Origin: an uncultured Bacteroidia bacterium
Lineage (GTDB): Bacteria > Bacteroidota > Bacteroidia > Bacteroidales > Prolixibacteraceae
DNA length: 61,968 nt
Direction: 5' to 3'
Assembly: GCA_903923905.1 (NCBI GenBank)
Contig: CAIXZH010000008.1
Location: 1-61,968, forward strand
The position numbers and the translations under genes were made by a program. How positions within the stretch are numbered: the stretch's first letter is position 1; the number at the start of each line of letters is the position of its first letter. The notes under the pieces are model-generated. The model made no database searches and was not told where the DNA came from. It was given only the letters and a program-made list of their open reading frames with translations. Of the stretch, positions 9,378 through 51,340 are shown piece after piece.

Positions 9378-9407
9378 GCAAGGCACTTAACCGTGCCCTG
9401 CTTTTTT
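9378..9407 (+). terminator. Rho-independent terminator after the DUF5018 gene
   Basis: The arms GCAAGGCAC (9378-9386) and GTGCCCTGC (9393-9401) pair with a single A/C mismatch around a 6-nt loop and are followed at once by six T residues (9402-9407). It lies 19 bp after the DUF5018 stop and would end or weaken transcription before the GHL10 gene, a common way to keep SusC/D expression higher than that of downstream enzymes. Confidence 0.85.
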
Positions 9408-9450
9408 GTATTTTAAATCAGATTATTCACAGACCGGAATATTTTTAGTC

Positions 9451-10812: not shown

Positions 10813-10857
10813 GAAAATTACCGTGGTCATTTTATGAAATTTACATTATTAGAAAGC

Positions 10858-19034: not shown

Positions 19035-19053
19035 CCTAAATAAAAAGATTATC

Positions 19054-23164: not shown

Positions 23165-24610
23165 ATGAAGTCAATAAAACTCCTGGTTCTTCTTTTGTTA
23201 CTGACTAATCTATATGTAGTTGGCCAGCATCATGAACAGAATTATACTCCCGATCCCAATCCCCGGATTCAGCAACGGATAGGTGAATGGCAGGACATCA
23301 AATTTGGGCTCCTGATGCATTGGGGGCCATACAGTCAGTGGGGAATTGTGGAGTCGTGGTCAATTTGCCCGGAAGATGAAGGGTGGTGTGTCCCTGACAC
23401 GGTAAAAGATTATTTCGCTTACAAAAAACACTACGAGAATCTGGGAAAAACCTTCAACCCGACGAAATTTGATCCCGCAAAATGGGCCAAAGCAGCAAAG
23501 GAAGCCGGGATGAAATATGTCGTTTTTACCACCAAGCATCATGACGGATTTTGCATGTTTGACAGTAAATATACTGATTATAAAATCACCGGTCCTGATT
23601 GCCCTTTTCATACCAATCCCAAAGCCGATGTGACGAAAGAGATTTTTAATGCCTTTCGCAAAGAAGGGTTATGGGTTGGTGCCTATTTCTCAAAACCGGA
23701 CTGGCACACTCCCGATTACTGGTGGTCCCATTTTCCCCCACTTGACCGAAACGTCAATTACGATCCTGCAAAATACCCTGACCGCTGGAATAGTTTTGTA
23801 AAATTCACCCATAACCAGGTGATGGAACTCTGCACAAACTATGGTAAGATAGATTTATTTTGGTTTGATGGCGGTTGGGTTCAGAAGAACGGTCCGGTAG
23901 GTGAAAAGCCTCATGCTGAAGGCTTCAGCGTCAAAAAGCGCTTCGATCAGGATATCAAAATGGACGAACTGGTGACTGAAATCCGTTCCAAACAGCCTGA
24001 TGCCATCGTTGTTGACAGGGCTGTTGAAGGGAAAAACCAGAATTACCTGACTCCTGAAAACACGGTTCCTGAAAAAATGTTGCCTTATCCATGGGAATCA
24101 TGCATCATTTTAGGTGGTGGATGGTCTTTCTCTTATAATGCCACGATGAGGCCTACACGTGACATGATTCACATGCTTTCGGATATCGTGGCAAAAGGGG
24201 GGAACCTGCTTTTAAATATCGGCCCCGGACCTGATGGTACATGGTATGATTCAGCCTATGACCGGCTGAAAGAGATTGGCGACTGGCTGAAAATTAACGG
24301 ACAGGCTATTTATGGCACCCGACCAATCGCACCTTATCTGGATGGTAAGTTACGCTTCACAAAGGGGAAAGATGGTTCAGTTAATGTTATATATTTGTTG
24401 GCAGAGAATGAAAAGCTTCCTTCATCCATATCGGTTCAGGGATTTGTTCCTGAAAAAGGGGCCGGTATTACACTTCTTGGGAAAAAAGGAAGTACGCTGA
24501 AATGGAAGGCGGATGGCACAAGCTTCAAGATTTCGGTCCCGGAATCTCTGGGTAAAGCGATGCCGTTAAAATATGCAGTTGTTTTGCATATCGATAAGGT
24601 CGCGAAATAA
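23165..24610 (+). CDS. GH29 alpha-L-fucosidase (first copy)
   Basis: The 481-residue secreted protein (signal peptide ending near VVGQ) opens its catalytic barrel with RIGEWQDIKFGLLMHWGPYS, then YVVFTTKHHDGFCMFDS, VGAYFSKPDWH, and KIDLFWFDGGW, where Asp235 is the nucleophile position of GH29. GNLLLNIGPGPDG and a C-terminal beta-sandwich follow, as in typical alpha-fucosidases of about 450-500 residues. It would remove terminal or core alpha-L-fucose in the periplasm. A second GH29 at 58320-59615 is only distantly similar, so the two probably act on different fucose linkages. Upstream lies a TAAATTTG box; downstream a 40-nt palindrome separates it from a ROK kinase. Confidence 0.95.
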   Translation: MKSIKLLVLLLLLTNLYVVGQHHEQNYTPDPNPRIQQRIGEWQDIKFGLLMHWGPYSQWGIVESWSICPEDEGWCVPDTVKDYFAYKKHYENLGKTFNPTKFDPAKWAKAAKEAGMKYVVFTTKHHDGFCMFDSKYTDYKITGPDCPFHTNPKADVTKEIFNAFRKEGLWVGAYFSKPDWHTPDYWWSHFPPLDRNVNYDPAKYPDRWNSFVKFTHNQVMELCTNYGKIDLFWFDGGWVQKNGPVGEKPHAEGFSVKKRFDQDIKMDELVTEIRSKQPDAIVVDRAVEGKNQNYLTPENTVPEKMLPYPWESCIILGGGWSFSYNATMRPTRDMIHMLSDIVAKGGNLLLNIGPGPDGTWYDSAYDRLKEIGDWLKINGQAIYGTRPIAPYLDGKLRFTKGKDGSVNVIYLLAENEKLPSSISVQGFVPEKGAGITLLGKKGSTLKWKADGTSFKISVPESLGKAMPLKYAVVLHIDKVAK

Positions 24611-25666: not shown

Positions 25667-25690
25667 ATCTATAAGTTAAACTTGCCACTC

Positions 25691-28090
25691 ATGAAAAATT
25701 CCGGTTTTAGGATTTTGGTTCTTTTCATCATGTTCGGATTACTGGCATCTTTCACTATTCCGAAGGGGTCATTCAATCCGTCCGCGTATGTCGATCCGCA
25801 AATTGGTTCGGTCCATGGCCGCTGGTTTTTTTATACTCCGGCTGCCTTGCCGTTCGGTATGGCTAAGCTTGCACCTCATACTAATGCTGCCGGAAGTCTG
25901 GGTAGTTGGGACCCGTGTGGATACGATGACCGGCATACTTCAATCGAAGGATTTGGCCATTTTCATGAATTTCAAATTGGGGGAGTGGTATTTATGCCAA
26001 CGATTGGTGATCTGAGAACGATTCCCGGAAAACAGGAACACCCTGAAGGGGGTTATCGTTCCCGCTTTGACAAAAAAAGTGAACATGCAGAACCTGGTTA
26101 CTATTCAGTTTTTTTGAAGGATTATGGAATCAGGGCAGAGTTAACAGCAACCGAACGGGTTGGTTTTCATCGCTACACCTTTCCGGAAACAACTCAGGCC
26201 CATTTGATCATCGATATTGGACACAAGCAAGGGGAGAGCAGCGATGTTACCGATGCTTTCGCTAAGGTTGTTAATGGCAATGAGGTCGAAGGTTATGTTG
26301 AGACCTATCCCGAATATGTAAAATTCGGGGATCCCGGGAAACGGGTGATGATGTATTTTGTCGCCAGGCTAAGCAAACTGCCTTCCGGGACAGGTTCATT
26401 TAAAGACTCCATTCAACAAAAAGGGGCTACCTCCACCAAAGGAATTGGGAACGGTCTTTTTTTGACCTTTAAAATGGCCCAAAATGAGAAGCTCGAGATC
26501 GCGACCGGTTTGAGTTATACCTCCATTCAGAATGCCAGGCTCAACCTGCAAACCGAATCCGCAGGAAAAACATTCGATGATGTACATCAGATTTCACAAT
26601 TGATCTGGGCACAAAAGCTAGGACGTATCAAGGCTGAAGGTGGAGATTCAGTGAGCCGGGTGAAGTTTTATACCGGACTGTATCATGCATTGCTTGGACG
26701 GGGCATATCGAGCGATGTTAACGGGCAGTATCCATTGGTTGATAAAGGGATAGGACAAATACCACTTGATGAAAAGGGCAAACCACAATACCACCACTAT
26801 AATACCGACGGGATCTGGGGCGGCTTCTGGAACCTGAGTCAGCTTTGGGCGTTGGTTTATCCTGAATATTTTAAGGAATACGTTCAGTCAAATATCGATT
26901 TTTACAAAACACGCGGGTGGCTGCACGATGGTGAAGCTGCCGGAGTATATACCAATGGTGTTCAGACCAATTACCAGGGTTTGATGATTGCCTCAGCTTA
27001 CAATTGCGGAATCCGTGATTTCGATGTGAAAACAGGTTATGAAGCCGCCCTGAAAAATGAGGTTGATTACCATGGCAGGAACCTCGGAAACGGAAAATTC
27101 GATCTGAACTATTTTGTGAAGGATGGATATGTCCCATCGCGCGATACGCTGTTTTCAAACGGATGGAAATTTAATTTCGGGTGCTCCCATACGCTGGAGT
27201 ATTCCTATAGTTCTTATGCAGTGGCTCAACTTGCTCGGCAATTAGGTCATAATGAGGACTATGACAAATTAATGAAACAGGCCACCTACTACCGCAATCT
27301 TTTCGATCCGGAAACAAAGTTTATCAGGCCTAAGATGGCAGACGGTACATTTATTCCAAATTTTGATCCGATGAAAGCCTGGATCGGTTTTCAGGAAGGC
27401 AATGCATTTCAATATACGTGGTATGTGCCGCACGATGTGGCAGGACTTATCCGGCTGATGGGGAAAGATGAATTCAACCGAAGACTTGAACATGTTTTTG
27501 ACACTTCCCGGAAAACCCGGTTTGGCGGAGGCGACAGCGATGTCGATAGCTTCTCGGGCATCGAAATGGTTTATAACCACGGAAACCAGCCTTGTTTACA
27601 CGATTCCTGGTTATTCAATTACAGCGGACAACCCTGGCTTACCCAAAAATGGACACGGGCCATTTGTGATGAATTTTATGGCGCAGAACCTTTACGCGGA
27701 TATGGAATCGGTCAGGATGAAGACCAGGGTCAACTGGGAGCATGGTACGTGCTGGCAGCCTTAGGGATATTTGATGTTCAGGGGCATACTGCGATAAATC
27801 CGACTTTCCAGTTTGGAAGTCCGCAGTTTGACAAGGTAACAATTCAACTCAATCCAAAGTATTACAAAGGCAAAACACTGATTATCAAAGCTCAAAATAA
27901 TTCCAAAAAGAATGTCTATATCCAATCGGTCTCTTTCAATCAACAAAAGATTGATGATTGCTGGATTGAGCGCACTCCTCTTACTGAAGGCGGCACCCTG
28001 TTATTCGAAATGGGGGAACAGCCGAATAAAGCATGGGGGATAACTGTTCCTCCCCCAAGTATGAGTGACGCATTTGTGAATATTAAATAG
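25691..28090 (+). CDS. GH92 alpha-mannosidase (first copy)
   Basis: From the ATG at 25691 (the TTG at 25682 is a frame extension) the product is 799 residues with a signal peptide. It has the GH92 beta-sandwich start (YVDPQIGSVHGRWFFYTPAA, PFGMAKLAPHTN), GFGHFHEFQIGGVVFMP, and an (alpha/alpha)6 barrel with FQEGNAFQYTWYVPHD, holding the catalytic-acid Glu position, and GIGQDEDQGQLGAWYVLAALG, holding the general-base Asp position. GH92 enzymes are calcium-dependent exo-alpha-mannosidases that invert configuration and trim alpha-1,2, 1,3 or 1,6 mannose from N-glycans and yeast mannan. Specificity cannot be read here. It is followed by a GH2 gene only 63 bp downstream. Confidence 0.95.
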   Translation: MKNSGFRILVLFIMFGLLASFTIPKGSFNPSAYVDPQIGSVHGRWFFYTPAALPFGMAKLAPHTNAAGSLGSWDPCGYDDRHTSIEGFGHFHEFQIGGVVFMPTIGDLRTIPGKQEHPEGGYRSRFDKKSEHAEPGYYSVFLKDYGIRAELTATERVGFHRYTFPETTQAHLIIDIGHKQGESSDVTDAFAKVVNGNEVEGYVETYPEYVKFGDPGKRVMMYFVARLSKLPSGTGSFKDSIQQKGATSTKGIGNGLFLTFKMAQNEKLEIATGLSYTSIQNARLNLQTESAGKTFDDVHQISQLIWAQKLGRIKAEGGDSVSRVKFYTGLYHALLGRGISSDVNGQYPLVDKGIGQIPLDEKGKPQYHHYNTDGIWGGFWNLSQLWALVYPEYFKEYVQSNIDFYKTRGWLHDGEAAGVYTNGVQTNYQGLMIASAYNCGIRDFDVKTGYEAALKNEVDYHGRNLGNGKFDLNYFVKDGYVPSRDTLFSNGWKFNFGCSHTLEYSYSSYAVAQLARQLGHNEDYDKLMKQATYYRNLFDPETKFIRPKMADGTFIPNFDPMKAWIGFQEGNAFQYTWYVPHDVAGLIRLMGKDEFNRRLEHVFDTSRKTRFGGGDSDVDSFSGIEMVYNHGNQPCLHDSWLFNYSGQPWLTQKWTRAICDEFYGAEPLRGYGIGQDEDQGQLGAWYVLAALGIFDVQGHTAINPTFQFGSPQFDKVTIQLNPKYYKGKTLIIKAQNNSKKNVYIQSVSFNQQKIDDCWIERTPLTEGGTLLFEMGEQPNKAWGITVPPPSMSDAFVNIK

Positions 28091-28153
28091 TCAATGAACA
28101 ATAAATTTAATTTTAAACAGTCTCCAGGCTTTGTCACAAAATTTATAAAACCT

Positions 28154-30769
28154 ATGAAGATTAAAAGTTTCTGTATTTTGGCGCTTTGGGTCATATCATT
28201 TCAAGCCTTTTCCCAACATGATGTAATTAAACTTAATTCCGGATGGAAAGCTAAAAAGGCAGTAGAGGTTGTAGTCGACGGAACTGTTATCTCAGGCAAG
28301 GATTTCAGATTATACGATTGGATGGAAGCTGTGGTTCCCGGAACAGTCCTGACCACCTTACTTCATAACCAAAAAGTTCCGGATCCGTTTTTCGGTATGA
28401 ACAATGAGCTGATTCCTGACATCTTTCAGACGGGTGCCGAATATTACACCTATTGGTTTTATGACGAATTCAAAGTTCCGGAAATGAAGGAGGGGGAACA
28501 GTTGTGGCTGAAGTTCCGTGGGATCAATTATTCTGCTGAAATGTTCCTGAATGGAAAGAAGATCAATCCGGATACCCATGAGGGGATGTATCTGAGGGAG
28601 AAATACCTGATTACCCCATTCCTTGAAAAAGGGATAAACCGCCTGGCTGTACTGGTCCATCCGCCCGATCCTGTCGGGGCTCCGAATGGACAGGGTGGTG
28701 ACGGAATGATTGCCAGGTCGGTGACCATGCAATTTACGGCAGGATGGGATTGGATTTGTCCGATCAGGGACCGGAATACAGGTATATGGGATGAAGTTGC
28801 TCTCGAAATAACCGGTGCGGTCGATCTTCTTGATCCATCCATTCAGACAAAAGTACCCGGAAAGAGAGTGACTGGCGGCAAACAGGCTCCTGCCATTGTT
28901 TTAACCTCAGCTGATCTTCTGAACAGTACTGAAACCATCCAAACCGGAAAGCTGATTGCACGTTGCGGCAAGATTGAGGTTTCGAAGCTGGTAACCATCC
29001 CTGCAGGAGAAAAAATTACGGTGACTCTTCCGGAGATTAAAATTGAAAATCCTTTGCTTTGGTGGCCTAACGGAATTGGGGAACACCCTTTATACAAGGT
29101 TGAATTCTTATTTATCGGCGATAAAGGGGTAGTATCGGATGTCGAAACTGTTCCTTTTGGTATCCGCCAGACCGGAACCCGGTTTGATGATAAGCTGAAT
29201 GCCAGGATCTTCACGATTAACGGACAAGATGTCTTCATAAAAGGGGGAAACTGGATTGCCTCTGATATGCTCCTTCGGCTATCTGCCAAACGTTACGATA
29301 CTGAGGTTCGGATGCACGCCGAAATGAACATGAATATGATCCGTGTCTGGGGTGGCTCCATGACCGAACGTCCTGAATTTTATGACGCCTGCGATAAATA
29401 TGGCATCATGGTTTGGCAGGATCTTTACATCTCGGGCGATTGCAATGGCCGATGGTTCGACCCTCAGAAGAAAGAGTCCCAGGAGCGTCGCCGTGCTTAT
29501 CCTGACAATCACTCCCTGTTTGTCAATACCGTTATTGATCAGGTCAAAATGTTGCGCAATCATCCAAGCCTCTATTTGTGGTGTGGCGGTAATGAGTACC
29601 CGCCTCCTGCCGATATAGCCAGAAAACTTGCAACAGAGGTTTTCCCGAAATATGACGGCTCACGTTATTACCTTGAACAATCAACCTCAACCGACCTGGC
29701 CAAAAACAGTCTGGGCGGGAACGGTGACGGCCCATACAACATACAGAATCCGCTTAATTTCTTTACGGTTACCTCTTTCCCGTTCAACCCGGAATTGGGC
29801 TCAGTGGGAATCCCTAACGTGGAAACAATGCGCCGGATAATGGAGGAAAAGGACCTGGTCCTGCCTACAAAACATGGCGAAAACCCCACATGGAGTTATC
29901 ACAAGTACATTTCTTATGATAATTTTATCGATCAGTATGGAAAGGCCGATGGAATTGCAGATTTCTGCAAAAAGGCGCAACTGGTGAACTATGAGCAATA
30001 CCGTGCTCTTCAGGAGGGTTTTAGTGCAAAAATGTGGACAACCTATTCCGGAATGCTGGTATGGAAAAACCAGAATCCATGGACCGCACTGCGTGGACAA
30101 TTTTATGATGTTTTTCTGGAGCAGAACGGTGGCTTCTATGGATACCAACATGGGGCCAAACCACTTCATTTACAATTGAATCTGAATGATTCATCGGTTT
30201 GTCTAATTAATCAAACAATTTTCGATCTGAATGACCTCACCGTTTCGGCAGAGCAATTTGACATTCACGGAAATTTACTGTCAAAAGATCAGTACAAGAC
30301 TTCAACTCCGGCGAATAAGGTTTCTCTTCTAAAAAAGCTTAAAACACCAGATCCTGGTCAGGCAGTTTATTTTTTACGTTTGAAACTCACGGATAACGAT
30401 AACCAGCTTAAAGATGAGAATTTCTATTGGTTATCCAAACCCGGGAAAAGCTACGAAAAACTGAACGAATTGAAGCAAACAAACCTTGAAAGTGAATGGA
30501 AAAACAATGCCACAGGGGAGAAGTCTTTACTGATCCGGAATCCCGGAAAGGAAACTGCATTTTTTGTAAGACTCAAAGTATTGACCCAAAAAGGTGGAGA
30601 ACTCGCTCTTCCTGTTTTCCTAAGCGATAATTATATCACTTTGCTTCCTGGCGAAAGCAGGGAAATTAAGATCGATTGCACCCAACTTCCGGAATCCGTC
30701 AATTCAAAATCGTTATGGATCGAAATGGAAGGGTGGAATGTAAAAAACTGTTCTCTAAAAATGGAATAA
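28154..30769 (+). CDS. GH2 glycosidase, beta-mannosidase / exo-beta-glucosaminidase type (second copy)
   Basis: The ATG at 28154 begins MKIKSFCILALWVISF with cleavage near AFSQ; the frame from 28094 adds 20 residues before the signal. The 871-residue protein shows WMEAVVPGTVLTTLLHN, DPFFGMNNELIPD, WLKFRGINYSAEMFLNG, DRNTGIWDEV, then the barrel with FIKGGNWIASDMLLR, MIRVWGGSMTE, WCGGNEYPPP (acid/base Glu) and FNPELGSVGIPN (nucleophile Glu). This is the GH2 beta-mannosidase and exo-beta-glucosaminidase layout. With GH92 in front of it, removal of the beta-linked core mannose of an N-glycan is a sensible role. Compared with the GH2 at 16263, it keeps the WGG-x-x-x-E motif that the other lacks (there VGSEDSP), so the two differ in the active-site wall. 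Confidence 0.9.
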   Translation: MKIKSFCILALWVISFQAFSQHDVIKLNSGWKAKKAVEVVVDGTVISGKDFRLYDWMEAVVPGTVLTTLLHNQKVPDPFFGMNNELIPDIFQTGAEYYTYWFYDEFKVPEMKEGEQLWLKFRGINYSAEMFLNGKKINPDTHEGMYLREKYLITPFLEKGINRLAVLVHPPDPVGAPNGQGGDGMIARSVTMQFTAGWDWICPIRDRNTGIWDEVALEITGAVDLLDPSIQTKVPGKRVTGGKQAPAIVLTSADLLNSTETIQTGKLIARCGKIEVSKLVTIPAGEKITVTLPEIKIENPLLWWPNGIGEHPLYKVEFLFIGDKGVVSDVETVPFGIRQTGTRFDDKLNARIFTINGQDVFIKGGNWIASDMLLRLSAKRYDTEVRMHAEMNMNMIRVWGGSMTERPEFYDACDKYGIMVWQDLYISGDCNGRWFDPQKKESQERRRAYPDNHSLFVNTVIDQVKMLRNHPSLYLWCGGNEYPPPADIARKLATEVFPKYDGSRYYLEQSTSTDLAKNSLGGNGDGPYNIQNPLNFFTVTSFPFNPELGSVGIPNVETMRRIMEEKDLVLPTKHGENPTWSYHKYISYDNFIDQYGKADGIADFCKKAQLVNYEQYRALQEGFSAKMWTTYSGMLVWKNQNPWTALRGQFYDVFLEQNGGFYGYQHGAKPLHLQLNLNDSSVCLINQTIFDLNDLTVSAEQFDIHGNLLSKDQYKTSTPANKVSLLKKLKTPDPGQAVYFLRLKLTDNDNQLKDENFYWLSKPGKSYEKLNELKQTNLESEWKNNATGEKSLLIRNPGKETAFFVRLKVLTQKGGELALPVFLSDNYITLLPGESREIKIDCTQLPESVNSKSLWIEMEGWNVKNCSLKME

Positions 30770-32334: not shown

Positions 32335-34995
32335 ATGAGAACTCTATTGACACTAGTTTTAATTTCTTCGCTGGCTTTAAGTTTTAGCATACCAATCAAT
32401 GCTCAATCAAAAGTAAACGAGGTAATTGTCGTATTCAAAACCCATTTCGATATCGGCTACACCGACTGGGCAGATAATGTGGTCTATAATTATTCGCATT
32501 CAACCATTACCGGGGCATTGGATATGATTGAAAAATCAAAACAATTCCCCCGGGATGAACAGTTCAAATGGACAATATCAGGGTGGCCCCTGACACAAAT
32601 GATCACAAAGTCCGAGCCTGAGGTAAAACCCCGGATCGAACAGGCAATACGCGATGGAAACCTGATTGTCCAGGCAATGCCCTTAAGTTTTGAAACGGAA
32701 GCACTCGATCCGGAACCCCTGGTCAGATCGCTGGCGTACTCCTCAAAAATTAACAGAGATGCCGGTTTACCCTTGCCCATTGATGCCAAACAAACCGATG
32801 TCCCGAGCCATTCGTGGATTCTTCCCACAATGCTTGCCAATGCCGGAATCAAATTCCTGCATATTGGATGCAATGCCGCTTCGATGTCTCCCGAGGTTCC
32901 GTTGCTTTTCTGGTGGGAAGGACCCGATAAATCAAAAGTCATGACCATGTATTACGGTCCCTATTATGGAACAAGTCCTGCGCCTCCCAAAGAATGGCCT
33001 TTCCGCACCTGGCTTGCGATCGTGATGACCAATGACAATACGGGTGTTCCAACCTTCAAGGAATATCAGGATGCAATTCAGGATATCAAAAAACAAAATC
33101 CGGGTGCAAGTGTGAGAACCGGCAGTATGGGCGATTTTTACACTACGCTGATGAAGGAAAAGCCTGAATTGCCGGTCGTGAGGGGGGACATGCCTGATAC
33201 CTGGATTCACGGATATATGTCGATGCCCAGGGAGGTTAAAGCAGGGCGAATTTTGAGTAAATCTGTTGCAAACCTTGAAGCCTTAAATACCCTTAACGGT
33301 ATGTGGGGAAGCCAGACTGAAAAACAGATATCACCAATCATTGATGATGCCATGGAGCAGATTCATCTCTGGGACGAACATTCGTTTGGCATGGCAATGA
33401 GTCACGGTCATGCCGGATACTGGGCCTACGGGGATGATTTTGAAAACCTAAGGGCAAAGGGTTATTATGAGCCCATTGAATATTCATGGAAGGAGAAATC
33501 AAACCATATCACCCTGGCAACCCAGTTAATTGATCCCACGCTCAGCCGGGAAATCAAAGGACTTGCAGTCGCAGCAAATATTGCAGGTGAGCGTATCGTC
33601 GTATATAATCCGCTGCCCTGGGAACGAAGCGGTTTAGTGACTGTCCAGACCAATGAGCCATTGAAAAAAGTGCTGAAGAACAGTTCAACCGGCGAACTTA
33701 TCCATGTGTTCAGAAACCATAACATCACCCAATTTCAGGCGAACCATATTCCGGCCATGGGTTACACGACCTTTGTTCCGGTTGACGATGCCTGTCCGGT
33801 TAATACCTCATCGCTTGTTTGTGATGCTAAAAACGGAATCCTTGAAAACGGGTTCTTCCGGCTGGCTTTTGATCTGAAAAATGGGACAGTGAGTTCTTTG
33901 ATCGATAAAAAAACCGGACGCGAAGCGGTTAATCCGAATTCTGATTTCAAATTTGGACAATATGTTTATGAACGATTCAGCAAGGAAAAAACGGATAAAT
34001 ACGCCAAAGATTACATCAAAGGGGGATACGACTGGGCTTACCCGGAACTTGGAAGAATTAACCTGGACAATAAACCTTACCGGATGATATCCGGCACGAA
34101 TCCACGAATTGAATTTATTGAAGATACTCTTTCTGTCTCGGCAATCATCCATTTTGATGGTGAGGAAGCGTTAAAACATCATTATTCACTTACCTTCAGT
34201 TTAACAGTCAATAAGCCTGCTGTTGAAATAATCTGGAGCATCAATGGCAAACCGGCTGACGCGTGGCCCGAAGGGGGCTGGATCAGCTTTCCGTTTAATA
34301 TTGATAAACCGCAGTTTAAATTAGGACGCCTTGGTGCCGTTGTGGACCCAGTAACCGACTATATTAAAGGCTCAAATCACGATTATTGTTTCCTGAATTC
34401 CGGAATGGCTGTGCTCAATTCGAAAAACCAGGGATTCGGGATTATGTCGCCCGATGTTCCCGGAATCAGTCTCGATCGTCCTGGCTTATGGTGCTATTCA
34501 CCAGCGTTTATGCCCAAAAAGGGAAATGTTTTCTTTAATTTATTCAATAATCAGTGGAGTACCAATTTTACGGAATGGGTTGAAGGATCATGGAATGCCC
34601 GCTTTTATATCTGGAGCATTGACCAGTTTTCAAATGAGGCATCCATTATTACCCCTTCGGAGGAGATCCGGAATCCTCTGATGACTGCTATAGCAATCGG
34701 GGCGGCAGGAAAGCTTCCCCCTACCGGGCAGGGGATCGCCTTATCAGCAAAAGGTATTCTGGTAACCGCATTTGGGAAGAACAGGGATGGGGAAGGTGAT
34801 CTTCTGCGTCTTTGGGAACAAAGTGGTGTCAACACCGGATGTATTGTTTCACTTCCCAGGGAGAGCCGTTACAAACAGGTTCAACCCTGCAATCTGAGAG
34901 GCGAAAAGATCGGTAAAGCAATGAAGATTACGGATCACTCGTTTGAGGCAAAACTAAATGCCTATCAACCGGTTTCTTTCATCCTTTATAAGTAA
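32335..34995 (+). CDS. GH38-clan alpha-mannosidase-like protein (HxDIGYT type; DUF5054-like)
   Basis: The 886-residue secreted protein has a signal ending INAQ and then at once FKTHFDIGYTDWADN, with the zinc ligands His37 and Asp39 of GH38-type domains. DAKQTDVPSHSWILPTML carries Asp155 at the nucleophile position. Further blocks are FWWEGPDKSKVMTMYYGPY, WDEHSFGMAMSHGHAGYW with possible third and fourth ligands, and C-terminal beta domains (FRLAFDLKNGTVSSLIDKKT). The overall plan matches the GH38-related DUF5054 group more than classical lysosomal-type GH38 enzymes. It would be a zinc-dependent alpha-mannosidase or a related glycosidase. It stands alone behind the repeat cluster and ahead of the transglutaminase gene. 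Confidence 0.8.
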   Translation: MRTLLTLVLISSLALSFSIPINAQSKVNEVIVVFKTHFDIGYTDWADNVVYNYSHSTITGALDMIEKSKQFPRDEQFKWTISGWPLTQMITKSEPEVKPRIEQAIRDGNLIVQAMPLSFETEALDPEPLVRSLAYSSKINRDAGLPLPIDAKQTDVPSHSWILPTMLANAGIKFLHIGCNAASMSPEVPLLFWWEGPDKSKVMTMYYGPYYGTSPAPPKEWPFRTWLAIVMTNDNTGVPTFKEYQDAIQDIKKQNPGASVRTGSMGDFYTTLMKEKPELPVVRGDMPDTWIHGYMSMPREVKAGRILSKSVANLEALNTLNGMWGSQTEKQISPIIDDAMEQIHLWDEHSFGMAMSHGHAGYWAYGDDFENLRAKGYYEPIEYSWKEKSNHITLATQLIDPTLSREIKGLAVAANIAGERIVVYNPLPWERSGLVTVQTNEPLKKVLKNSSTGELIHVFRNHNITQFQANHIPAMGYTTFVPVDDACPVNTSSLVCDAKNGILENGFFRLAFDLKNGTVSSLIDKKTGREAVNPNSDFKFGQYVYERFSKEKTDKYAKDYIKGGYDWAYPELGRINLDNKPYRMISGTNPRIEFIEDTLSVSAIIHFDGEEALKHHYSLTFSLTVNKPAVEIIWSINGKPADAWPEGGWISFPFNIDKPQFKLGRLGAVVDPVTDYIKGSNHDYCFLNSGMAVLNSKNQGFGIMSPDVPGISLDRPGLWCYSPAFMPKKGNVFFNLFNNQWSTNFTEWVEGSWNARFYIWSIDQFSNEASIITPSEEIRNPLMTAIAIGAAGKLPPTGQGIALSAKGILVTAFGKNRDGEGDLLRLWEQSGVNTGCIVSLPRESRYKQVQPCNLRGEKIGKAMKITDHSFEAKLNAYQPVSFILYK

Positions 34996-35108: not shown

Positions 35109-37808
35109 ATGGCAAATAAAATAGTATCGTTTACCCTGTTGATTACCCTTTTCATTTCCTGTGTCCCAGAGGCCACCCTTATTCAAAATCCTGAACGGCT
35201 TGCAGATATTCAGCGTATGCTGACTGTTCAAAAAGGAATTACCTCGAAAAGTCTGCTTCCGGTGTGGGATGTATTCAATCAGCCACTCCCGGAATCCGAA
35301 AAACAGGCCATGGAGTTTTTATATGCCTATATGCCACTGAGCGATCTGGCAGATTATAAACCCGAATTTTTCCTGAAGAACGTGCAGCAAAGTCTGCTGG
35401 CAAAGGATGAAATGCCGTGGGGCAAGTCAATTCCGGAGGAGGAATTTCTCCATTTTGTACTGCCACTTCGGGTGAACAACGAAAACCTGGATAATTTCAG
35501 GGAGGTGATGTATCCGGAGATCAGGGAGCGGATTAAAGGGCTGGGAATGAAGGAAGCGGCCCTTGAAATTAACCACTGGTGTCACGAGAAGGTGAATTAC
35601 CGTGGTACAGACTCACGGACCAGTGCCCCTTTAAGTGCCATTAAAAAATCATTCGGGCGTTGTGGCGAAGAATCGACATATACCGTGACTGCCATGCGAA
35701 CTGCAGGAATTCCCGCCCGTCAGGTATACACTCCCCGTTGGGCTCATTCCGACGATAACCATGCCTGGGTAGAGGTGTGGATCGATGGCAAATGGAACTA
35801 TCTTGGTGCCTGTGAGCCTGACGTAGATTTGAACATGGGATGGTTCAGCGAACCCTCACGCCGCACTATGCTGGTTCATACGCGGGCCTTTGGACGGTAC
35901 TTTGGAAAAGAAGATGTGGTGATTGCTACAGACCGTTTTTCGGAATTAAACCTTACTTCAAATTACGCTACGGTTAAAAAAATAACTATTGCTGTTAAAA
36001 ACAGTGACGGAACACCAGCTGATAGCGCCAAAGTGGAATATCAACTATATAATTATGCAGAGTATTACCCGATTGCCTCGGGTTTTACGAACAAGAGTGG
36101 CCTGACCAGTTTGACAACCGGAATGGGAGATCTGATTATCTGGACATCCAAAAACGGGAAGTTTGCCTACCAGAAATTTTCGGTCCCTGAAATAGATACC
36201 TTGCAATTGGTACTCAGCCAGATTATTCCGGCAGATAAGAGCGAAATTTTTGACTTTGTTCCACCTCATGCAGCAAAGGTACTGACAAATGTTTCCGACC
36301 AGGCAGTCAAACAAAATACCCGGCGTCTGGCCAACGAAGATTCGGTCCGGGGAGCCTACCAGAAAACCTTTAAGGATTCAGCCTGGATTGCCGGATTTGC
36401 AAAAAAAACTAATCTCCCTTTTGATACCCTTTCAAGGTTTTTCAAGCTAAGCTATGGAAACTGGGATCAGATTGCCTCTTACCTGGAAAAAAATGGTTCG
36501 TCTTACAGGAGTACCTTACTGGATTTGCTGATTCAGATATCTGACAAGGATTTCAGCGATACGCCTGAATCAATCCTGACCGATCACCTGGTCCAGGTTG
36601 CAAAATCGGGTGGTCAGCAGGCAGGAACTTCGAAGGAACTGTTTACCAGATATATCCTTTCTCCGCGAATTGGCCTCGAAAAATTAACTTCCTGGAGAAG
36701 CTTCCTGATTAATTCATTGAGTAAAGAGATGACATCATCCGTTCGTGAAAATATCTCGGTTCTGACTACCTGGATTCGTGAAAATATCCGGATAAATGGT
36801 GATGCCAACAAACTTTCACGGAATCCGATTTCTCCGGCCGGTGTCTACAATCTGAAAGTTGCCGATCCGACCTCCAGAGATATATTCTTTGTTGCTGCAT
36901 GCCGTTCTTTTGGAATCCCTGCACGTATCAATCCGGAAACCCAGATGCCCGAATATTTCAAAAACGGCCAGTGGCTCCGGGCTGGTTTCGAACCTGAAGC
37001 GGTGGTTCAACCCGAAAAAGGGAGTCTCCGGCTTATTGACAAGAACAATCCGGTTCCGCCTCAGTATACTTTGCACTTTACCATTGCAATCCTGCGCGAT
37101 GGTTTCTACCGGACCCTTGAATTTCCTGAAGGTAAAGTATTGACCGAATCGAAGGATCCAATTGCCATGGAGGCAGGTCATTATGCACTGGTCACCGGGA
37201 GTCGTCTTCAGGATGGCTCTGTATTGAGTAGCCTGACTTTCTTTACCATTGAAAATGGAAAACTGACCACAGTGCCGATTGAGATTCGTAAACAACCCGG
37301 AGAACTCAAAACCTCGGGAAAGCTGAATCTTGATCAGCTGAGCATTGAAAAAATCGAAGACAGGAAGGCGGAGAGTATTGGTTCACTTACAGGTGGAAAA
37401 CATTCTGTAATTGTGCTCCTTGATCCGGATAAAGAGCCTTCCAAACATATTCTGAATGACCTGGGTCCTTATGTCGATCATTTCAATAGATGGGGTGGCC
37501 AATTTATTTTTGCCATTCCTTCGGAGGAAATTTCCCAGGCAGGGGTTCTTAAAACCTATAACCTCCCTGCTAAAATGGTGTGCGGCAGCGATAAGGCCGG
37601 GGATATTTTCAAGGCAATTTCGGCGATTTACGGTGAAGGGCTTAAAGATAAGTTACCACTGGTACTCCTTTGTGATGAATCGGGAAATATTTACCTATTC
37701 TCTTCTGGATATAAGATCGGTGCGGGCGAGCAGTTGCTTAAAGTAATTGCCGGGATGGAAGCTCTGAAAAAGTCTAATCCTGCTAAAGTCTCATGTACTA
37801 CCAAGTGA
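35109..37808 (+). CDS. Transglutaminase-fold lipoprotein, candidate peptide:N-glycanase-like enzyme
   Basis: The 899-residue protein has a lipobox (LFISC, Cys18), an N-terminal helical region, and a transglutaminase-fold domain at about 130-260. Its motifs are SFGRCGEESTYTVTAMRTAG (Cys185), DDNHAWVEVWIDGKWNYLG (His218) and ACEPD, where Glu236 falls near the usual Asp. GRCGE is also the signature around the catalytic Cys of eukaryotic peptide:N-glycanase. A second, degenerate copy of the fold lies at about 555-650 (FVAACRSFGIPARINPETQ) without a catalytic Cys. The last 120 residues (SVIVLLDPDKEPSKHIL and onward) resemble a thioredoxin fold without CxxC. The family is known to me only as transglutaminase domain-containing. 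Release of glycans from peptides is inference from motif and setting; a protease or a binding role is possible. Confidence 0.75.
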   Translation: MANKIVSFTLLITLFISCVPEATLIQNPERLADIQRMLTVQKGITSKSLLPVWDVFNQPLPESEKQAMEFLYAYMPLSDLADYKPEFFLKNVQQSLLAKDEMPWGKSIPEEEFLHFVLPLRVNNENLDNFREVMYPEIRERIKGLGMKEAALEINHWCHEKVNYRGTDSRTSAPLSAIKKSFGRCGEESTYTVTAMRTAGIPARQVYTPRWAHSDDNHAWVEVWIDGKWNYLGACEPDVDLNMGWFSEPSRRTMLVHTRAFGRYFGKEDVVIATDRFSELNLTSNYATVKKITIAVKNSDGTPADSAKVEYQLYNYAEYYPIASGFTNKSGLTSLTTGMGDLIIWTSKNGKFAYQKFSVPEIDTLQLVLSQIIPADKSEIFDFVPPHAAKVLTNVSDQAVKQNTRRLANEDSVRGAYQKTFKDSAWIAGFAKKTNLPFDTLSRFFKLSYGNWDQIASYLEKNGSSYRSTLLDLLIQISDKDFSDTPESILTDHLVQVAKSGGQQAGTSKELFTRYILSPRIGLEKLTSWRSFLINSLSKEMTSSVRENISVLTTWIRENIRINGDANKLSRNPISPAGVYNLKVADPTSRDIFFVAACRSFGIPARINPETQMPEYFKNGQWLRAGFEPEAVVQPEKGSLRLIDKNNPVPPQYTLHFTIAILRDGFYRTLEFPEGKVLTESKDPIAMEAGHYALVTGSRLQDGSVLSSLTFFTIENGKLTTVPIEIRKQPGELKTSGKLNLDQLSIEKIEDRKAESIGSLTGGKHSVIVLLDPDKEPSKHILNDLGPYVDHFNRWGGQFIFAIPSEEISQAGVLKTYNLPAKMVCGSDKAGDIFKAISAIYGEGLKDKLPLVLLCDESGNIYLFSSGYKIGAGEQLLKVIAGMEALKKSNPAKVSCTTK

Positions 37809-40368: not shown

Positions 40369-40503
40369 ACTGAGTTAGATAATAACTTTTTATGTTGGCT
40401 AATTGTAATATTTGCCTTGCAATTGAGCTGCCAAAAGTACTACAATAATAAATCTTTACAAAAGACTTTTTTGATCTCGGTAATAATGGGTCAATAGCTA
40501 ATA

Positions 40504-44618: not shown

Positions 44619-47507
44619 ATGAGAAAGATATCTCTTATTCTTTCAGCTTCACTGCTGGCAGCGATGCTCTCAGTAAATGCCCAAACTTCAAAATCCACCT
44701 CAGTAATCTTCCAGAATGCACCTGTCTTGTTTAAGGAGCAAGGGAAAAGGGTTCAGCAAATCGTTGCAGAGATCAAAGCTGATCAACCGGCGGAATTGGT
44801 ATTTTCTATTCCGGGTGAAAAGATTCAGAAGGACTCCGTAAAAAAAGGGGATAACCTGATTCTGCTGACTGTTTCTGCTATTTCTTCCCCCAGGAAGGTT
44901 AATATCTCAGTAAAAGGGGATAAATCTTTTTCCGGTAAATTTCCGTTAACGCTAACACCGGTGAAAAAATGGGAGATTGATCTGGTTCAGCATGCCCATA
45001 CCGACATCGGCTATACCCGTCCGCAATCTGAGATACTTGCTGAACATATGCGTTATATTGACTATGCGCTTGATTATTGCGACCAGACCGACGCCCTTCC
45101 TGATGATGCCAGATTTCGGTGGACCTGTGAATCGGCATGGGTCACCCGGGAGTATCTCCGGTCTCGCCCTTCTTCGCAAATCGGGCGTTTGAAGAAGCGG
45201 ATTGCCGAAGGCCGCATTGAAGTTACCGGCATGTATTGCAATATGGCTGAGATTTCCGATGAAAATGTGATGACCGACTTCCTTCAGCCTTTAAAGGAGT
45301 TCAACAAATTGGGAATACCTGTTCAAACAGTTATGCAGGATGACGTTAACGGAATTGCCTGGTGCATGCCTGATTATTTAAAGAATTCGGGCGTGAAGTA
45401 CCTTGATATGGGGATTAATCAAACCAGGTCTATTCTTCCCTTCGAAATACCAACCTGCTTCTGGTGGGAAGCTCCATCCGGAGCCCGGCTTCTTGCTTTC
45501 AGGGCTGACCATTATATGACCGGAAACTTCTTTGGCATGGAGTCGAAAGCCATTAAGGTTCCCCAAATGCTCAACCACCTTGCAAAACTGGATGAAAAGC
45601 AATATCCTTTTGACAAGATTTCCATTCAGTTTTCGGGATATTTTACCGACAATTCGCCACCATCAACGGCGGCATGTGAACTGGTCAAAAACTGGAACTC
45701 TACTCATGAATCGCCCAAATTGCGTTTGTCAGTTGTGAATGAGTTTTTTCATTATGTGGAGAATAATTATGCCGCCTCACTTCCCGTTTACAGGAATGCC
45801 TGGCTCGACTGGTGGACCGATGGATACGGCTCAACTTCGCGTGAGACTGCGGAAGTGAGAAAAACTCAGAACATGTTGCAGGTTGATGAAGGTTTGTTTG
45901 CGATGGTGGCCGTTATGGGCGGAGAACAATCCCCGGCTCTGGAATCCAATATTGATCATATCAGCGAAAATGCAATATTCTTCGATGAGCATACCTGTGG
46001 CGCTGACGAGAGTATAAGTCATCCTTTCTCTGAAAATTCGACCAGGCAATGGCTGCAAAAGGGTGCTTACGCATGGGAAGCACTGAAAAAAGTCACTTTA
46101 CTGCATGAAGAGGCATTGGCCCGATTCCAACAGTTTCTCAAAAAGGGAGATTTTCCGGTAATCTATGTCATTAATTCAATGGGATGGAACCGCTCTGGCG
46201 ATGTTAATTTATTTGTAGACAGTGAAATACTACCGGTTGCCAAAAAATCAAAAATCATTGATCTCTCAACGGGACAGGAGGTACCCGCCCAAATGGTTTA
46301 CAGACGGGCCGAAGGTGCTTATTGGGTACTTGAGGTTAAGGATATTCCGGCAATGGGTTATAAGGCCCTGAAAATTGTTCCCGGTGAAGTGGAAATGAAA
46401 GCGGAACCTGTTACCAATTCTGAGGTACTTGAAAATAATTTTTATAAGGTGGTTATCAATAAATCCACCGGGACAGTCAGCAGCCTTTACGACAAAGAGC
46501 TGAACCAGGAGCTTGCTGACAGTCAGAATCCATATCAAATTGGTCAGCCGGTTAAAGAAACCTCAAAAGAACGGGATACTGCCCCTTTTATCCGCACCTC
46601 CGTCTCAAATGTGAAAATTGGAAATAACATGAATGGGCAGGTATGGGAAAGCATCAAAATCTCCTCAGACCTTCAGGGCTTTGAAAAAGGGGGGGATGGC
46701 TCTCCAAAAGGGATAGATCTGGAGATACGTCTTTATAAAAATGTAAAAAAAATAGAGTTTAAATATACCGGACATAAGCTGATCGTTACAGATCCTGAAG
46801 CGCTGTATGTAGCGTTCCCTTTCTCATTGCCAGAATCCAAAATAGTTTTTGAAACAATTGGAGGTATTTTGACCCAGGGACAACAATTGCCGGGATCGGC
46901 TTCCGACTGGAATGTCGCCCAGAATTTTGTGTCAATTCGCGGGAAGAAGGGACAAATAATCGTGGTCAGTAATGAAGTGCCGCTTTGGCAATTCAGTGAT
47001 TTTAATATGAATAAATATGAAAGGTATCCCAAACCGGGAAAGACCTGGCTCTATTCGTATGTGATGAATAATTACTGGTTTACCAATTTCCGGGCCTTTC
47101 AGGAAGGAGGGTTCAGCTGGAGTTACCAGATTACCTCTTCAGCCGATACAACAAATACCTTTGCCACTAAATATGCCTGGAATGAAAGGAATCCTATTCC
47201 TACCAGAACCTTTCCTGCAGGAGTAAATGAATTGAAAATGCCATCAATGGGAACTGTTAAAATCTCTGGCCCATCGAATGGAATGTTGGTTAACAGCAGA
47301 CCTTCATTCAAGAATCCGGGATCTCTCCTTTTGCATTTTCGGGAATTGGAGGGTAGACCCGCGGAAATGACACTCGAATCGGGGATTACAGGCAGACCAA
47401 TTAAACGGATGGTTGAGGTGAATGTGAGCGGAAAGGAATTAGGAGATCCGATTCAATCGATAAAATTAAATCCTTTTGAGGTGAAGTTTGTAGAAGTTCA
47501 ATTTTAG
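44619..47507 (+). CDS. GH38-clan alpha-mannosidase (HxDIGYT type, with N-terminal beta domain)
   Basis: The 962-residue secreted protein (signal ending VNAQ) has an extra beta-sandwich of about 100 residues before the catalytic domain. That domain opens at WEIDLVQHAHTDIGYTRPQS with zinc ligands His127 and Asp129. TVMQDDVNGIAWCMPDYL holds the nucleophile Asp (241 or 242), FWWEAPSGARLLAFRADHYM follows, and FFDEHTCGADESISHPFSE offers later ligands. C-terminal domains (LENNFYKVVINKSTGTVSSL) match the GH38 beta domains. It would be a retaining, zinc-dependent alpha-mannosidase in the periplasm. Its organisation is closest in this window to the partial protein at 59743. The next gene is GH92, 169 bp downstream. 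Confidence 0.87.
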   Translation: MRKISLILSASLLAAMLSVNAQTSKSTSVIFQNAPVLFKEQGKRVQQIVAEIKADQPAELVFSIPGEKIQKDSVKKGDNLILLTVSAISSPRKVNISVKGDKSFSGKFPLTLTPVKKWEIDLVQHAHTDIGYTRPQSEILAEHMRYIDYALDYCDQTDALPDDARFRWTCESAWVTREYLRSRPSSQIGRLKKRIAEGRIEVTGMYCNMAEISDENVMTDFLQPLKEFNKLGIPVQTVMQDDVNGIAWCMPDYLKNSGVKYLDMGINQTRSILPFEIPTCFWWEAPSGARLLAFRADHYMTGNFFGMESKAIKVPQMLNHLAKLDEKQYPFDKISIQFSGYFTDNSPPSTAACELVKNWNSTHESPKLRLSVVNEFFHYVENNYAASLPVYRNAWLDWWTDGYGSTSRETAEVRKTQNMLQVDEGLFAMVAVMGGEQSPALESNIDHISENAIFFDEHTCGADESISHPFSENSTRQWLQKGAYAWEALKKVTLLHEEALARFQQFLKKGDFPVIYVINSMGWNRSGDVNLFVDSEILPVAKKSKIIDLSTGQEVPAQMVYRRAEGAYWVLEVKDIPAMGYKALKIVPGEVEMKAEPVTNSEVLENNFYKVVINKSTGTVSSLYDKELNQELADSQNPYQIGQPVKETSKERDTAPFIRTSVSNVKIGNNMNGQVWESIKISSDLQGFEKGGDGSPKGIDLEIRLYKNVKKIEFKYTGHKLIVTDPEALYVAFPFSLPESKIVFETIGGILTQGQQLPGSASDWNVAQNFVSIRGKKGQIIVVSNEVPLWQFSDFNMNKYERYPKPGKTWLYSYVMNNYWFTNFRAFQEGGFSWSYQITSSADTTNTFATKYAWNERNPIPTRTFPAGVNELKMPSMGTVKISGPSNGMLVNSRPSFKNPGSLLLHFRELEGRPAEMTLESGITGRPIKRMVEVNVSGKELGDPIQSIKLNPFEVKFVEVQF

Positions 47508-47676: not shown

Positions 47677-49902
47677 ATGAGACAAATACATACTATTTTC
47701 TGGTTTCTGCTGATTCTATTCAGTGGGTGCATCCATAAAGATGTAACCGTTTATGTCGATCCGAATATTGGAGGTGTTGCCACTTTACTGACCACCAAAA
47801 ATCCCACGGTCCATCGACCGCATAGTATGGTCAGGGTATTTCCAGTCACAAAACCGGGACTGAATGACCGTTTCCTGAGTGACAAGATTTATGGCTTTGC
47901 GCTGAATATGCCCGCCTACCGGATGGGACATGTGACGGAAATTATGCCTACTGCCGGAAAGCTGAATATTAGCCGGAATGAAAATGCAGCACTTTATGAC
48001 CATGACCAGGAAGAGGTTCACCCGTATTATCACAAAGTATGGCTTGAGGATTCAAAAATTGAGGCAGACTGGACAACCACTGAGCGGGCGGTAATTTATC
48101 GTTTTAATTATAAAGGGAAAGATTCAGGCAATATTCTTTTCCGTTCAGAAGGGAAGGCATCATTTAAAGTGATTGGCAATAATTCGGTTCAGGGTTGGGA
48201 AGAATTCCAACATACTAAACAATACTTCTATGCCGAATTGAATCATCCCTTTCAAAAATCGGGCTCTTTCGAATCGGGAAAAATCGGTGATCAAACTGAA
48301 GTTACCGGAAACAGCGTGGGTGTTTACCTGGAATATAAACCACTGGATCAGCCCCTTGAAGTTCGGGTGGGCATTTCCCTGATTGGTATTGACCAGGCGG
48401 CTGCCAATCTTCATAAGGAGACGCTTGGTAAAAAGTTTGAATCCATCATGGGAGAGAGTCATCAGGTTTGGGCGAAAGAACTTGGGAAGATCCAGGTGGA
48501 AGGGGGAACTGATCGGCAGAAACGGATTTTCTACACTTCGCTATACCGCTGTAATGAACGAATGGTGAACATTTCGGAAGATGGCCGTTATTTCAGCGGT
48601 TATGACGGAAAGGTTCATGAAGACGGAGGGCACCCTTTCTTTGTTGACGACTGGCTTTGGGACACCTACCGTGCACTTCATCCGCTGATGTCTATCCTCA
48701 ATCCCGATCAGCAGGCAGATATGGTTGAATCGTATGTCCGAATGTATGAACAAAGTGGTTGGATGCCCGGTTTTCCGCAGTTTTATGGCGATTTCCCGGC
48801 TATGGTCGGATTTCATTCTGCAGCGCTGGTTTGGGATAGTTATCAAAAGGGTATTCGAAATTTTGATGTGGCAAAGGCATATGAAGGTTTAAGAAAAAAT
48901 GCCACCCTGGCCACGATGCTGCCTTGGCGAAACGGACCAATGTGTTCGCTGGATAGTTTTTACCTAAAGAACGGTTGGTATCCGGCATTACCCGAAGATA
49001 GTGCAGAAACAGTTTCCCTGGTGGATGGTTTTGAAAAACGACAGGCTGTTTCACTTACACTTGAACATAGTTATGACGACTGGTGTTTGGCTCAGTTGGC
49101 CAATGCCCTGGGGAAAACCGATGATTACAACTACTTCCTGAACCGGTCGAAGAATTATCGCAATGTTTTTAATCCGGCCAACGGATTTATGGCCCCCAAA
49201 ATGGCCAACGGACAATGGATTGAGCCTTTTGATCCACAGTTATCCGGAGGAGTTGGCAGCCGCAGTTTTTACACCGAAAACAATGCCTGGACCTGGAATT
49301 TTAGTGTTACCCAGGATATCCCTGATTTGATCGGACTTTTGGGTGGAAAGGTGGCTTTCGTAAACAGGCTGGATGCTTTATTCAACGAGCCCACACGGAT
49401 TTCAAAATGGCAGTTTATGGGTAAATTCCCCGATTCAACCGGCTTAAACGGAATGTTTGTGGCTGGAAATGAACCTTCGCTGTATATTCCATATCTTTAT
49501 AATTATGCGGGACAACCCTGGAAAACACAGCGACGGATACGCGAAATCATGGATATGTGGTTTGACGACCGTCCCATAGGCATTCCGGGTGATGAAGATG
49601 GCGGTGGACTTTGTTCATGGTATGTTTTCTCCGCCATGGGATTCTTTCCGGTTACACCAGGAAGCGGCATTTATGCTATCGGAAGCCCGTTTTTCAACAG
49701 CATAACAATCCAGCTTCCAAATGGTAAAACATTCCAGGTGCTGGCCGAATCCTGCTCGAAAAAATTCAAGTACATCAAGTCTGCCAAATTGAACGGCAGG
49801 GTGTTGGATACTCCGTTTATCACGCATCAGAATATCATGGAGGGTGGCCGGCTTCATCTGGTCATGAGCGATAAACCGAATAAGGAATGGGGGGTGAAGT
49901 AG
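47677..49902 (+). CDS. GH92 alpha-mannosidase, lipoprotein (second copy, diverged)
   Basis: The 741-residue product is a lipoprotein (lipobox LFSGC, Cys18). It keeps the GH92 start VTVYVDPNIGGVATLLTT, YTENNAWTWNFSVTQDIPDL with the catalytic Glu position, MFVAGNEPSLYIPYLYNYAG, and GDEDGGGLCSWYVFSAMGFF with the base Asp position. It lacks the GFGHFHE block of the other GH92 and has AYRMGHVTEIMPTAGKL there, so the calcium or minus-one subsite region differs. This suggests another mannose linkage or a mannose-phosphate or substituted target. It probably sits on the outer membrane. The stop is followed within a few bases by a long octamer repeat structure. Confidence 0.93.
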   Translation: MRQIHTIFWFLLILFSGCIHKDVTVYVDPNIGGVATLLTTKNPTVHRPHSMVRVFPVTKPGLNDRFLSDKIYGFALNMPAYRMGHVTEIMPTAGKLNISRNENAALYDHDQEEVHPYYHKVWLEDSKIEADWTTTERAVIYRFNYKGKDSGNILFRSEGKASFKVIGNNSVQGWEEFQHTKQYFYAELNHPFQKSGSFESGKIGDQTEVTGNSVGVYLEYKPLDQPLEVRVGISLIGIDQAAANLHKETLGKKFESIMGESHQVWAKELGKIQVEGGTDRQKRIFYTSLYRCNERMVNISEDGRYFSGYDGKVHEDGGHPFFVDDWLWDTYRALHPLMSILNPDQQADMVESYVRMYEQSGWMPGFPQFYGDFPAMVGFHSAALVWDSYQKGIRNFDVAKAYEGLRKNATLATMLPWRNGPMCSLDSFYLKNGWYPALPEDSAETVSLVDGFEKRQAVSLTLEHSYDDWCLAQLANALGKTDDYNYFLNRSKNYRNVFNPANGFMAPKMANGQWIEPFDPQLSGGVGSRSFYTENNAWTWNFSVTQDIPDLIGLLGGKVAFVNRLDALFNEPTRISKWQFMGKFPDSTGLNGMFVAGNEPSLYIPYLYNYAGQPWKTQRRIREIMDMWFDDRPIGIPGDEDGGGLCSWYVFSAMGFFPVTPGSGIYAIGSPFFNSITIQLPNGKTFQVLAESCSKKFKYIKSAKLNGRVLDTPFITHQNIMEGGRLHLVMSDKPNKEWGVK

Positions 49903-51319: not shown

Positions 51320-51340
51320 ACGATCAAAATCAAATTGAAG

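Follow-up and report, generated by a model that had tools for sequence, protein, structure and literature searches.

What does a transglutaminase-fold protein do in a locus devoted to glycan breakdown? The question is raised by a 61,968-nucleotide stretch of DNA (the window) from an uncultured Bacteroidia bacterium of the family Prolixibacteraceae (assembly GCA_903923905.1, contig CAIXZH010000008.1), which carries many genes for sugar-trimming enzymes and, at 35109..37808 of the plus strand, a gene for a predicted exported lipoprotein of the transglutaminase fold (TG). A sequence-only reading of the window had proposed that TG might be an exported N-glycan amidase, or a protease that opens glycoproteins. 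The evidence described below suggests that TG is probably an exported cysteine amidase for the N-acetylglucosamine-asparagine (GlcNAc-Asn) linkage, which acts late and replaces glycosylasparaginase (AGA) in many Bacteroidales. This assignment is drawn from the mutual exclusion of TG and AGA, their shared coupling to the protein CutC, and core-glycan gene cassettes that are partly shared; these three lend the exported-amidase proposal strong indirect support.

The TG open reading frame (ORF; ATG start, 899 aa) is a real gene, and the AlphaFold2 model of the whole protein has a mean predicted local distance difference test score (pLDDT) of 89.5. PF01841 (Transglut_core) is the only Pfam family found in it, in two stretches that give the protein 93.3 bits against a cut-off of 23, which places TG in the superfamily by profile; an NCBIfam search returned no family. 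The first domain (best stretch residues 147-229, 35547..35795) keeps the Cys and His. The second copy (about residues 543-607, 36735..36929, 31.4 bits) is degenerate and lacks both residues in 25 aligned homologues. Profile and fold searches also delineate an Ig-like domain (residues 293-369, 35985..36215), homologous to the Bacteroides fragilis fragment 3e8v, and a thioredoxin-like domain (residues 744-881, 37338..37751) with a profile match to 2m72 (E 3e-4) and Foldseek matches to ResA/TlpA-type folds. No CXXC was seen when the 899-aa sequence was read by eye, and the thioredoxin-like end is, to judge from its residues, dead. A loose lipobox pattern fits the N-termini of 35 sequences in a set of 50 homologues, TG of the window included. 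The lipoprotein, its degenerate second fold copy and its thioredoxin-like C-terminus are thus as the sequence-only reading had described them. Because the thioredoxin domain swamped the full-length Foldseek search, the first TG domain was folded alone (pLDDT 85.8). The top match was 3isr, the sole entry at E 0.001 or better, followed by TglA, LapG and human transglutaminase 3; mouse peptide:N-glycanase (PNGase) came eighth (E 0.018).

The transglutaminase-like superfamily is defined by a Cys-His-Asp triad. Two of these residues are readily recognized in TG, at the positions given in the earlier reading: Cys185 (35661..35663), the presumed nucleophile, lies in GRCGEES, which starts at residue 183, and His218 (35760..35762), the presumed catalytic base, in DDNHAWVEVW, which starts at residue 215. 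Both are invariant in 50 sequences. The third falls in GACEP (residues 233-237, 35805..35819). Glu236 had been named as likely in the Asp position, but in a HMMER alignment with mouse PNGase that column, which we take to be that of the catalytic Asp, is filled by Gly233, and Glu236 pairs with a Glu three residues later. Gly233, Cys235, Glu236 and Pro237 are invariant across the 50 aligned homologues and Ala234 is found in at least 90%; Glu236 is a candidate replacement acid. For comparison, eight other transglutaminase-like loci have a readable motif, and six of them keep the Asp (FDAT, LDPT and similar) while two do not.

The TG family is widespread in Bacteroidales and is not peculiar to the window locus. 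A hidden Markov model built from 15 homologues found TG in 144 of 392 Bacteroidales genomes; in a phylum sample, full-length TG occurred in 1 of 295 genomes besides the window genome. A scan of named genomes confirmed at least 587 stretches, of which the best 80 were kept. Most of the protein is covered in 79 of these 80 (a contig end truncates L073; L068 is interrupted). Bacteroides fragilis, Phocaeicola massiliensis, Dysgonomonas mossii and Labilibaculum are among the sources, and metagenome-assembled genomes of Prolixibacteraceae supply two of the nearest relatives. The TG-positive set consisted of one genome per genus for 76 of 77 positive genera (the exception is the genus of G691), to which 18 genomes from the window's family were added. 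The frame is interrupted in 3 of the 76 (G364, G413, G638) and in G001 of the family set; in all, an in-frame stop or a split into two ORFs, from decay or assembly error, was seen in G001, G364, G413, G497, G638, L017 and L068. The window's family also has relatives that align with TG residues 60-250 at 30-38% identity, some of them shorter at about 402 aa and some of about 830-870 aa; these relatives (G023, G026, G029, G036 and others) occur in AGA-positive genomes too.

TG and AGA never occurred together in the 234 genomes compared. Ninety-four had TG (AGA in 0, CutC in 88), 52 had AGA and no TG (CutC in 41), and 88 had neither (CutC in 11). The TG-negative genomes, mostly one per family and non-random, were in part taken as negative by their absence from the positives listed. 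Within Bacteroidales, AGA is present in 0/94 TG-positive and 20/92 TG-negative genomes (p 2e-7). The same holds in the window's family, counted by genome (0/21 against 11/18, p 2e-5) or by genus (0/6 against 9/14, p 0.014); all three p values ignore ancestry. The exchange proper is visible inside one family and across families. PF01112 matches split into an AGA type and others, mainly of the isoaspartyl-peptidase type, and a match starting at model position 25 or later was typed as AGA. Thirteen were read in sequence, and one that was compared with the PDB matched glycosylasparaginase at E 3e-131 and isoaspartyl peptidases at 7e-37. An untyped 84-aa PF01112 fragment in the TG-positive genome G387 was counted as not AGA.

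Clustering of the neighbors of 81 TG loci gave one clearly recurrent gene, present in 22 loci. One member matched solved CutC structures at E 8e-68; it also matches the NCBIfam CutC model, yet below that model's cut-off. With PF03932 these genes are recovered at scores above the cut-off. Among the 76 TG-positive genera, CutC (a match over the Pfam cut-off, leaving out two weaker ones in G402 and G439) occurs in 72 and is no more than 3 kb from TG in 24, against 0.2 expected under the random placement assumed for all such expectations here; 22 are direct neighbors, in both gene orders and several orientations. CutC was over the cut-off in 17 of 78 TG-negative Bacteroidales genomes. It is coupled to AGA as well: the two lie within 3 kb in 16 of 52 genomes, which is the figure to use; the 17/19 seen in the AGA loci of the neighborhood survey is no estimate, since most of those 19 loci were chosen for a nearby CutC. 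In a class and phylum sample, CutC was found in 27/32 AGA-positive and 0/16 AGA-negative genomes. Pairing by family was done to lessen the effect of ancestry; in 17 families other than the window's with both TG-positive and TG-negative members, CutC follows TG in 13, with 0 reversals and 4 ties.

In a tree of 42 CutC sequences, TG-linked and AGA-linked copies interleave, with 7 changes, at least 2 of them forced by well-supported branches, and the CutC of the window genome groups (100/100) with two AGA-linked CutC of its own family. This fits a CutC that stayed while the amidase was exchanged. No evident signal peptide was seen in the few CutC sequences looked at. In both E. coli and humans, CutC carries the annotation of a copper protein. 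The cutC mutants of E. coli are sensitive to copper, an effect that has been traced to the MicL small RNA (PMC6538781). The distribution described here links CutC to N-glycan core catabolism in Bacteroidota, whatever TG does.

Other neighbors were sought by BLAST, the queries being the proteins of the window together with a single CutC, AGA and isoaspartyl peptidase, so that divergent glycoside hydrolase (GH) genes may have escaped detection. In the 76 genera, up to 8.6 kb from TG, CutC was found in 24, GH92 in 10 (1.7 expected), GH20 in 9, GH29 in 5, GH2 in 3 and GH38 in 2. Control loci, the isoaspartyl-peptidase genes of 20 of the 22 TG-positive genomes with a PF01112 match, had one GH92 and no other listed neighbor. 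Some TG and AGA loci are built in parallel. For example, GH20-TG-CutC-GH2 (L269) and GH20-TG-CutC-x-GH2 (L297) resemble CutC-GH2-AGA-GH20 (L224), and GH92-GH20-ROK-TG (L246) resembles CutC-GH20-GH92-AGA (L314). A GH92 of about 980 aa is found in TG loci L246, L259 and L276 and in AGA loci L304 and L314; its copies are 47-53% alike over nearly the whole length and interleaved. Other GH92 proteins near TG include some that are 43-58% alike to this type but shorter or cut, while those of L247, L281 and the window are 30-34% alike to it. In the best-matching TG and AGA loci, GH20 is 41-49% and GH2 35-47% alike, and both are related and interleaved. In L307, the GH2 next to AGA is related to beta-mannosidase (2je8, E 1e-204).

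In the proposed pathway, mannosidases, GH20 and a fucosidase would trim the glycan and leave GlcNAc-Asn on an amino acid or peptide. TG would then hydrolyze the amide between the first N-glycan GlcNAc and the asparagine, at a late stage of chitobiose-core breakdown, with GlcNAc-Asn or presumably short GlcNAc-Asn peptides as its substrate. Cys185 would attack the carboxamide, forming an aspartyl thioester and releasing 1-amino-GlcNAc; His218 would serve as the base, and Glu236 or another group would stand in for the missing Asp. TG would take the place of the Ntn-hydrolase AGA in many Bacteroidales, and CutC probably acts in the cytoplasm on a product of the TG step, for which 1-amino-GlcNAc is a guess. 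The fuller version, in which TG is a transglutaminase-fold GlcNAc-Asn amidase outside the AGA and PNGase families and CutC processes its product, for instance as a hydrolase of the glycosylamine 1-amino-GlcNAc, is doubtful; if true, CutC would gain a metabolic role in N-glycan catabolism.

Several observations weigh against a GlcNAc-Asn amidase coupled to CutC. The functional evidence for TG is all correlative. The usual catalytic Asp is missing in all 50 aligned homologues, and the fold search, with 3isr first, did not single out PNGase. Outside the window's family the sampled AGA-positive families differ from the TG-positive ones, and part of the exclusion is therefore owed to ancestry. In 52 of the 76 genera there is no CutC within 3 kb of TG, and the protein is present in 11 of the 88 genomes that lack both TG and AGA. 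It also occurs in the controls E. coli, Caulobacter and Lactococcus, which speaks against a universal role, and the E. coli case also tells against the proposal. The window genome has a single PF03932 match (contig C119, L336:6006-6623), on a different contig from TG, and no glycosidase was recognized beside it in the 13 kb of C119, where ORF starts were read without a profile search. With GH92, GH38, GH20, GH29 and GH2 pooled, 17/76 TG loci and 1/20 control loci have a neighbor (p 0.11, not significant); the survey of homologues for GH92, GH38 and GH20 neighbors that the earlier reading had suggested was positive for GH92. None of the five was detected within 8.6 kb in 59 of the 76 genera, some contigs ending sooner, and the GH92 type shared with AGA loci is seen in only some of the GH92 neighbors of TG. 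The idea that TG homologues always sit in glycan loci was dropped on the same 59 genera.

Among the alternatives, TG might be a true surface de-N-glycosylase of the PNGase type that takes whole glycans off proteins or peptides. TG and mouse PNGase have GRCGE and ACE in common in a weak alignment, the fold is compatible, and many TG-positive genera have little else of this kind: a PF09113 match is missing in 38 of 76 and reaches E 1e-40 or better in only 12. This alternative is nonetheless unlikely, as the catalytic Asp is missing, TG is coupled to core cassettes of the AGA type and not to surface release, and a complete PNGase F-II-like gene (PF09112, PF09113, PF22252; contig C115, L335:1-1800) is present in the window genome. 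The earlier statement that the locus has no GH18, GH85 or PNGase F-like gene holds for the locus as scanned but does not extend to the genome. The window has 38 complete ORFs of at least 150 aa; 34 were scanned and none belonged to these families, and the other four lie antisense to larger ORFs. Given the F-II-like gene, TG as the needed glycan-releasing enzyme of the genome was dropped; the genome may release N-glycans without TG, which makes TG more likely a finisher of GlcNAc-Asn stubs than an enzyme that strips whole glycans. Of the amidase that had been envisaged as PNGase-like, what survives is the GlcNAc-Asn step of AGA, not necessarily the removal of whole glycans.

A second alternative is that TG acts as a protease or glycopeptidase, opening glycoproteins or removing peptide from GlcNAc-Asn. 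The multidomain, exported architecture would suit such an enzyme; the PDB title of the top solved match, 3isr, calls it a putative cysteine protease, and LapG, also high in the list, is a protease. This too is improbable: beside a protease AGA would still be needed, yet TG and AGA never co-occur in the sampled genomes, and CutC tracks either one. That TG is inactive, structural or directed at an unrelated substrate, with the CutC link due to shared ancestry, would accord with the lack of a canonical Asp and with two degenerate domains, but is highly unlikely given the invariance of Cys185 and His218 in 50 sequences, the CutC linkage in 24 genera in several gene orders and orientations, and the within-family pairing of 13 to 0.

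The window has two GH92, three GH38-like, two GH29, one GH20, two GH2 and one GH94-like gene, two ROK genes and one SusC/SusD pair; a fourth GH38-like ORF, classed by similarity only, is open at the right edge. The GH20 hexosaminidase (21302..22978, minus strand) shares 52% identity with a GH20 that lies two genes away from TG in L280. The GH29 fucosidase (23165..24607, plus) is 67-69% identical to the GH29 adjoining TG in L280 and 57-58% to that two genes from TG in L259. There follow a GH92 mannosidase (25682..28090, plus), at about 33% identity to the 980-aa cassette type and so not of that type, and a GH2 (28094..30769, plus) whose closest solved relative is an exo-beta-glucosaminidase, not the cassette beta-mannosidase. 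Just upstream of TG lies a GH94-like gene (30771-32069), perhaps divergent, and directly upstream a divergent GH38-like gene (32335..34995, plus), both with weak Pfam matches. Beyond TG, all on the plus strand, are a GH38-like gene (44619..47507), a GH92 mannosidase (47677..49902), a GH38 alpha-mannosidase with four GH38-related Pfam domains matched (51335..54025) and a GH29 fucosidase (58320..59615). The 5.4-Mb window genome has 18 GH92 matches, the most of 76 genomes searched.

An MMPL-type exporter and an AraC regulator (37948-41379, minus) lie directly downstream of TG and break the plus-strand run of glycan genes. A GHL10/DUF4985 protein and two DUF4434 proteins, of putative glycosidase-like families, are encoded at 9406-11949 and 19021-20109; one of the three could be an unrecognized endo-acting enzyme of the locus.

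If the proposed activity is true, a new amidase family, found in 144 of the 392 Bacteroidales genomes sampled, would supply the final step in the use of N-glycans by a major gut order and could yield a reagent for glycobiology, and the tight link between TG and CutC makes the role of the latter directly testable. A 2023 review of bacterial N-glycan enzymes (PMC10154615) describes, in its accessible text, three families that remove N-glycans, GH18, GH85 and PNGase, and that text contains neither "transglutaminase" nor "CutC". The word "transglutaminase" does not occur either in a paper on gut Bacteroides PNGases (PMC9522356) or in one on PNGaseL (PMC12381499). Among the papers listed by a literature search, with most subscription journals outside its reach, none described a glycosylasparaginase with the transglutaminase fold, or a part for CutC in the catabolism of N-glycans.

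How TG stands to known systems can be set out case by case. The entry 3e8v, titled a possible transglutaminase-family protein of Bacteroides fragilis, is the Ig-like domain of the TG family (profile E 3e-29); it covers an 82-aa proteolytic fragment alone, and its title names no tested function. Cytosolic PNGase (NGLY1/Png1) is defined by a paired CXXC zinc site. TG resembles it in the transglutaminase fold, the nucleophile Cys in GRCGE, the histidine, and ACE after the acid column, but overall similarity is weak (E 0.11 by phmmer, 0.61 by profile, and the eighth-ranked Foldseek match). With Gly233 in the Asp column and no CXXC, TG was rejected as a member of this family; unlike the cytosolic enzyme, it is also predicted to be an exported lipoprotein and carries the Ig-like, dead second-copy and thioredoxin-like domains as extras. 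PNGase F and F-II (PF09112, PF09113, PF22252) are predicted to cut the same bond as TG but have no Pfam relation to it, PF09112 and PF09113 being absent from TG. In the alf-2 pathway of Lacticaseibacillus casei (AsnA2), the accessible text of PMC6960285 describes one cluster with a fucosidase, a ROK kinase and a GlcNAc-Asn hydrolase; it differs in that the AGA has no signal peptide, and "CutC" does not occur in that text. TG resembles AGA itself (aspartylglucosaminidase, EC 3.5.1.26) in the predicted bond (GlcNAc-Asn), predicted export, coupling to CutC and, in some loci, cassette partners. The domains are unrelated, AGA being an Ntn-hydrolase (PF01112) and TG, with PF01841 as its only Pfam family, having a transglutaminase fold with a Cys. 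The reaction is thus a known one, predicted here for a different fold.

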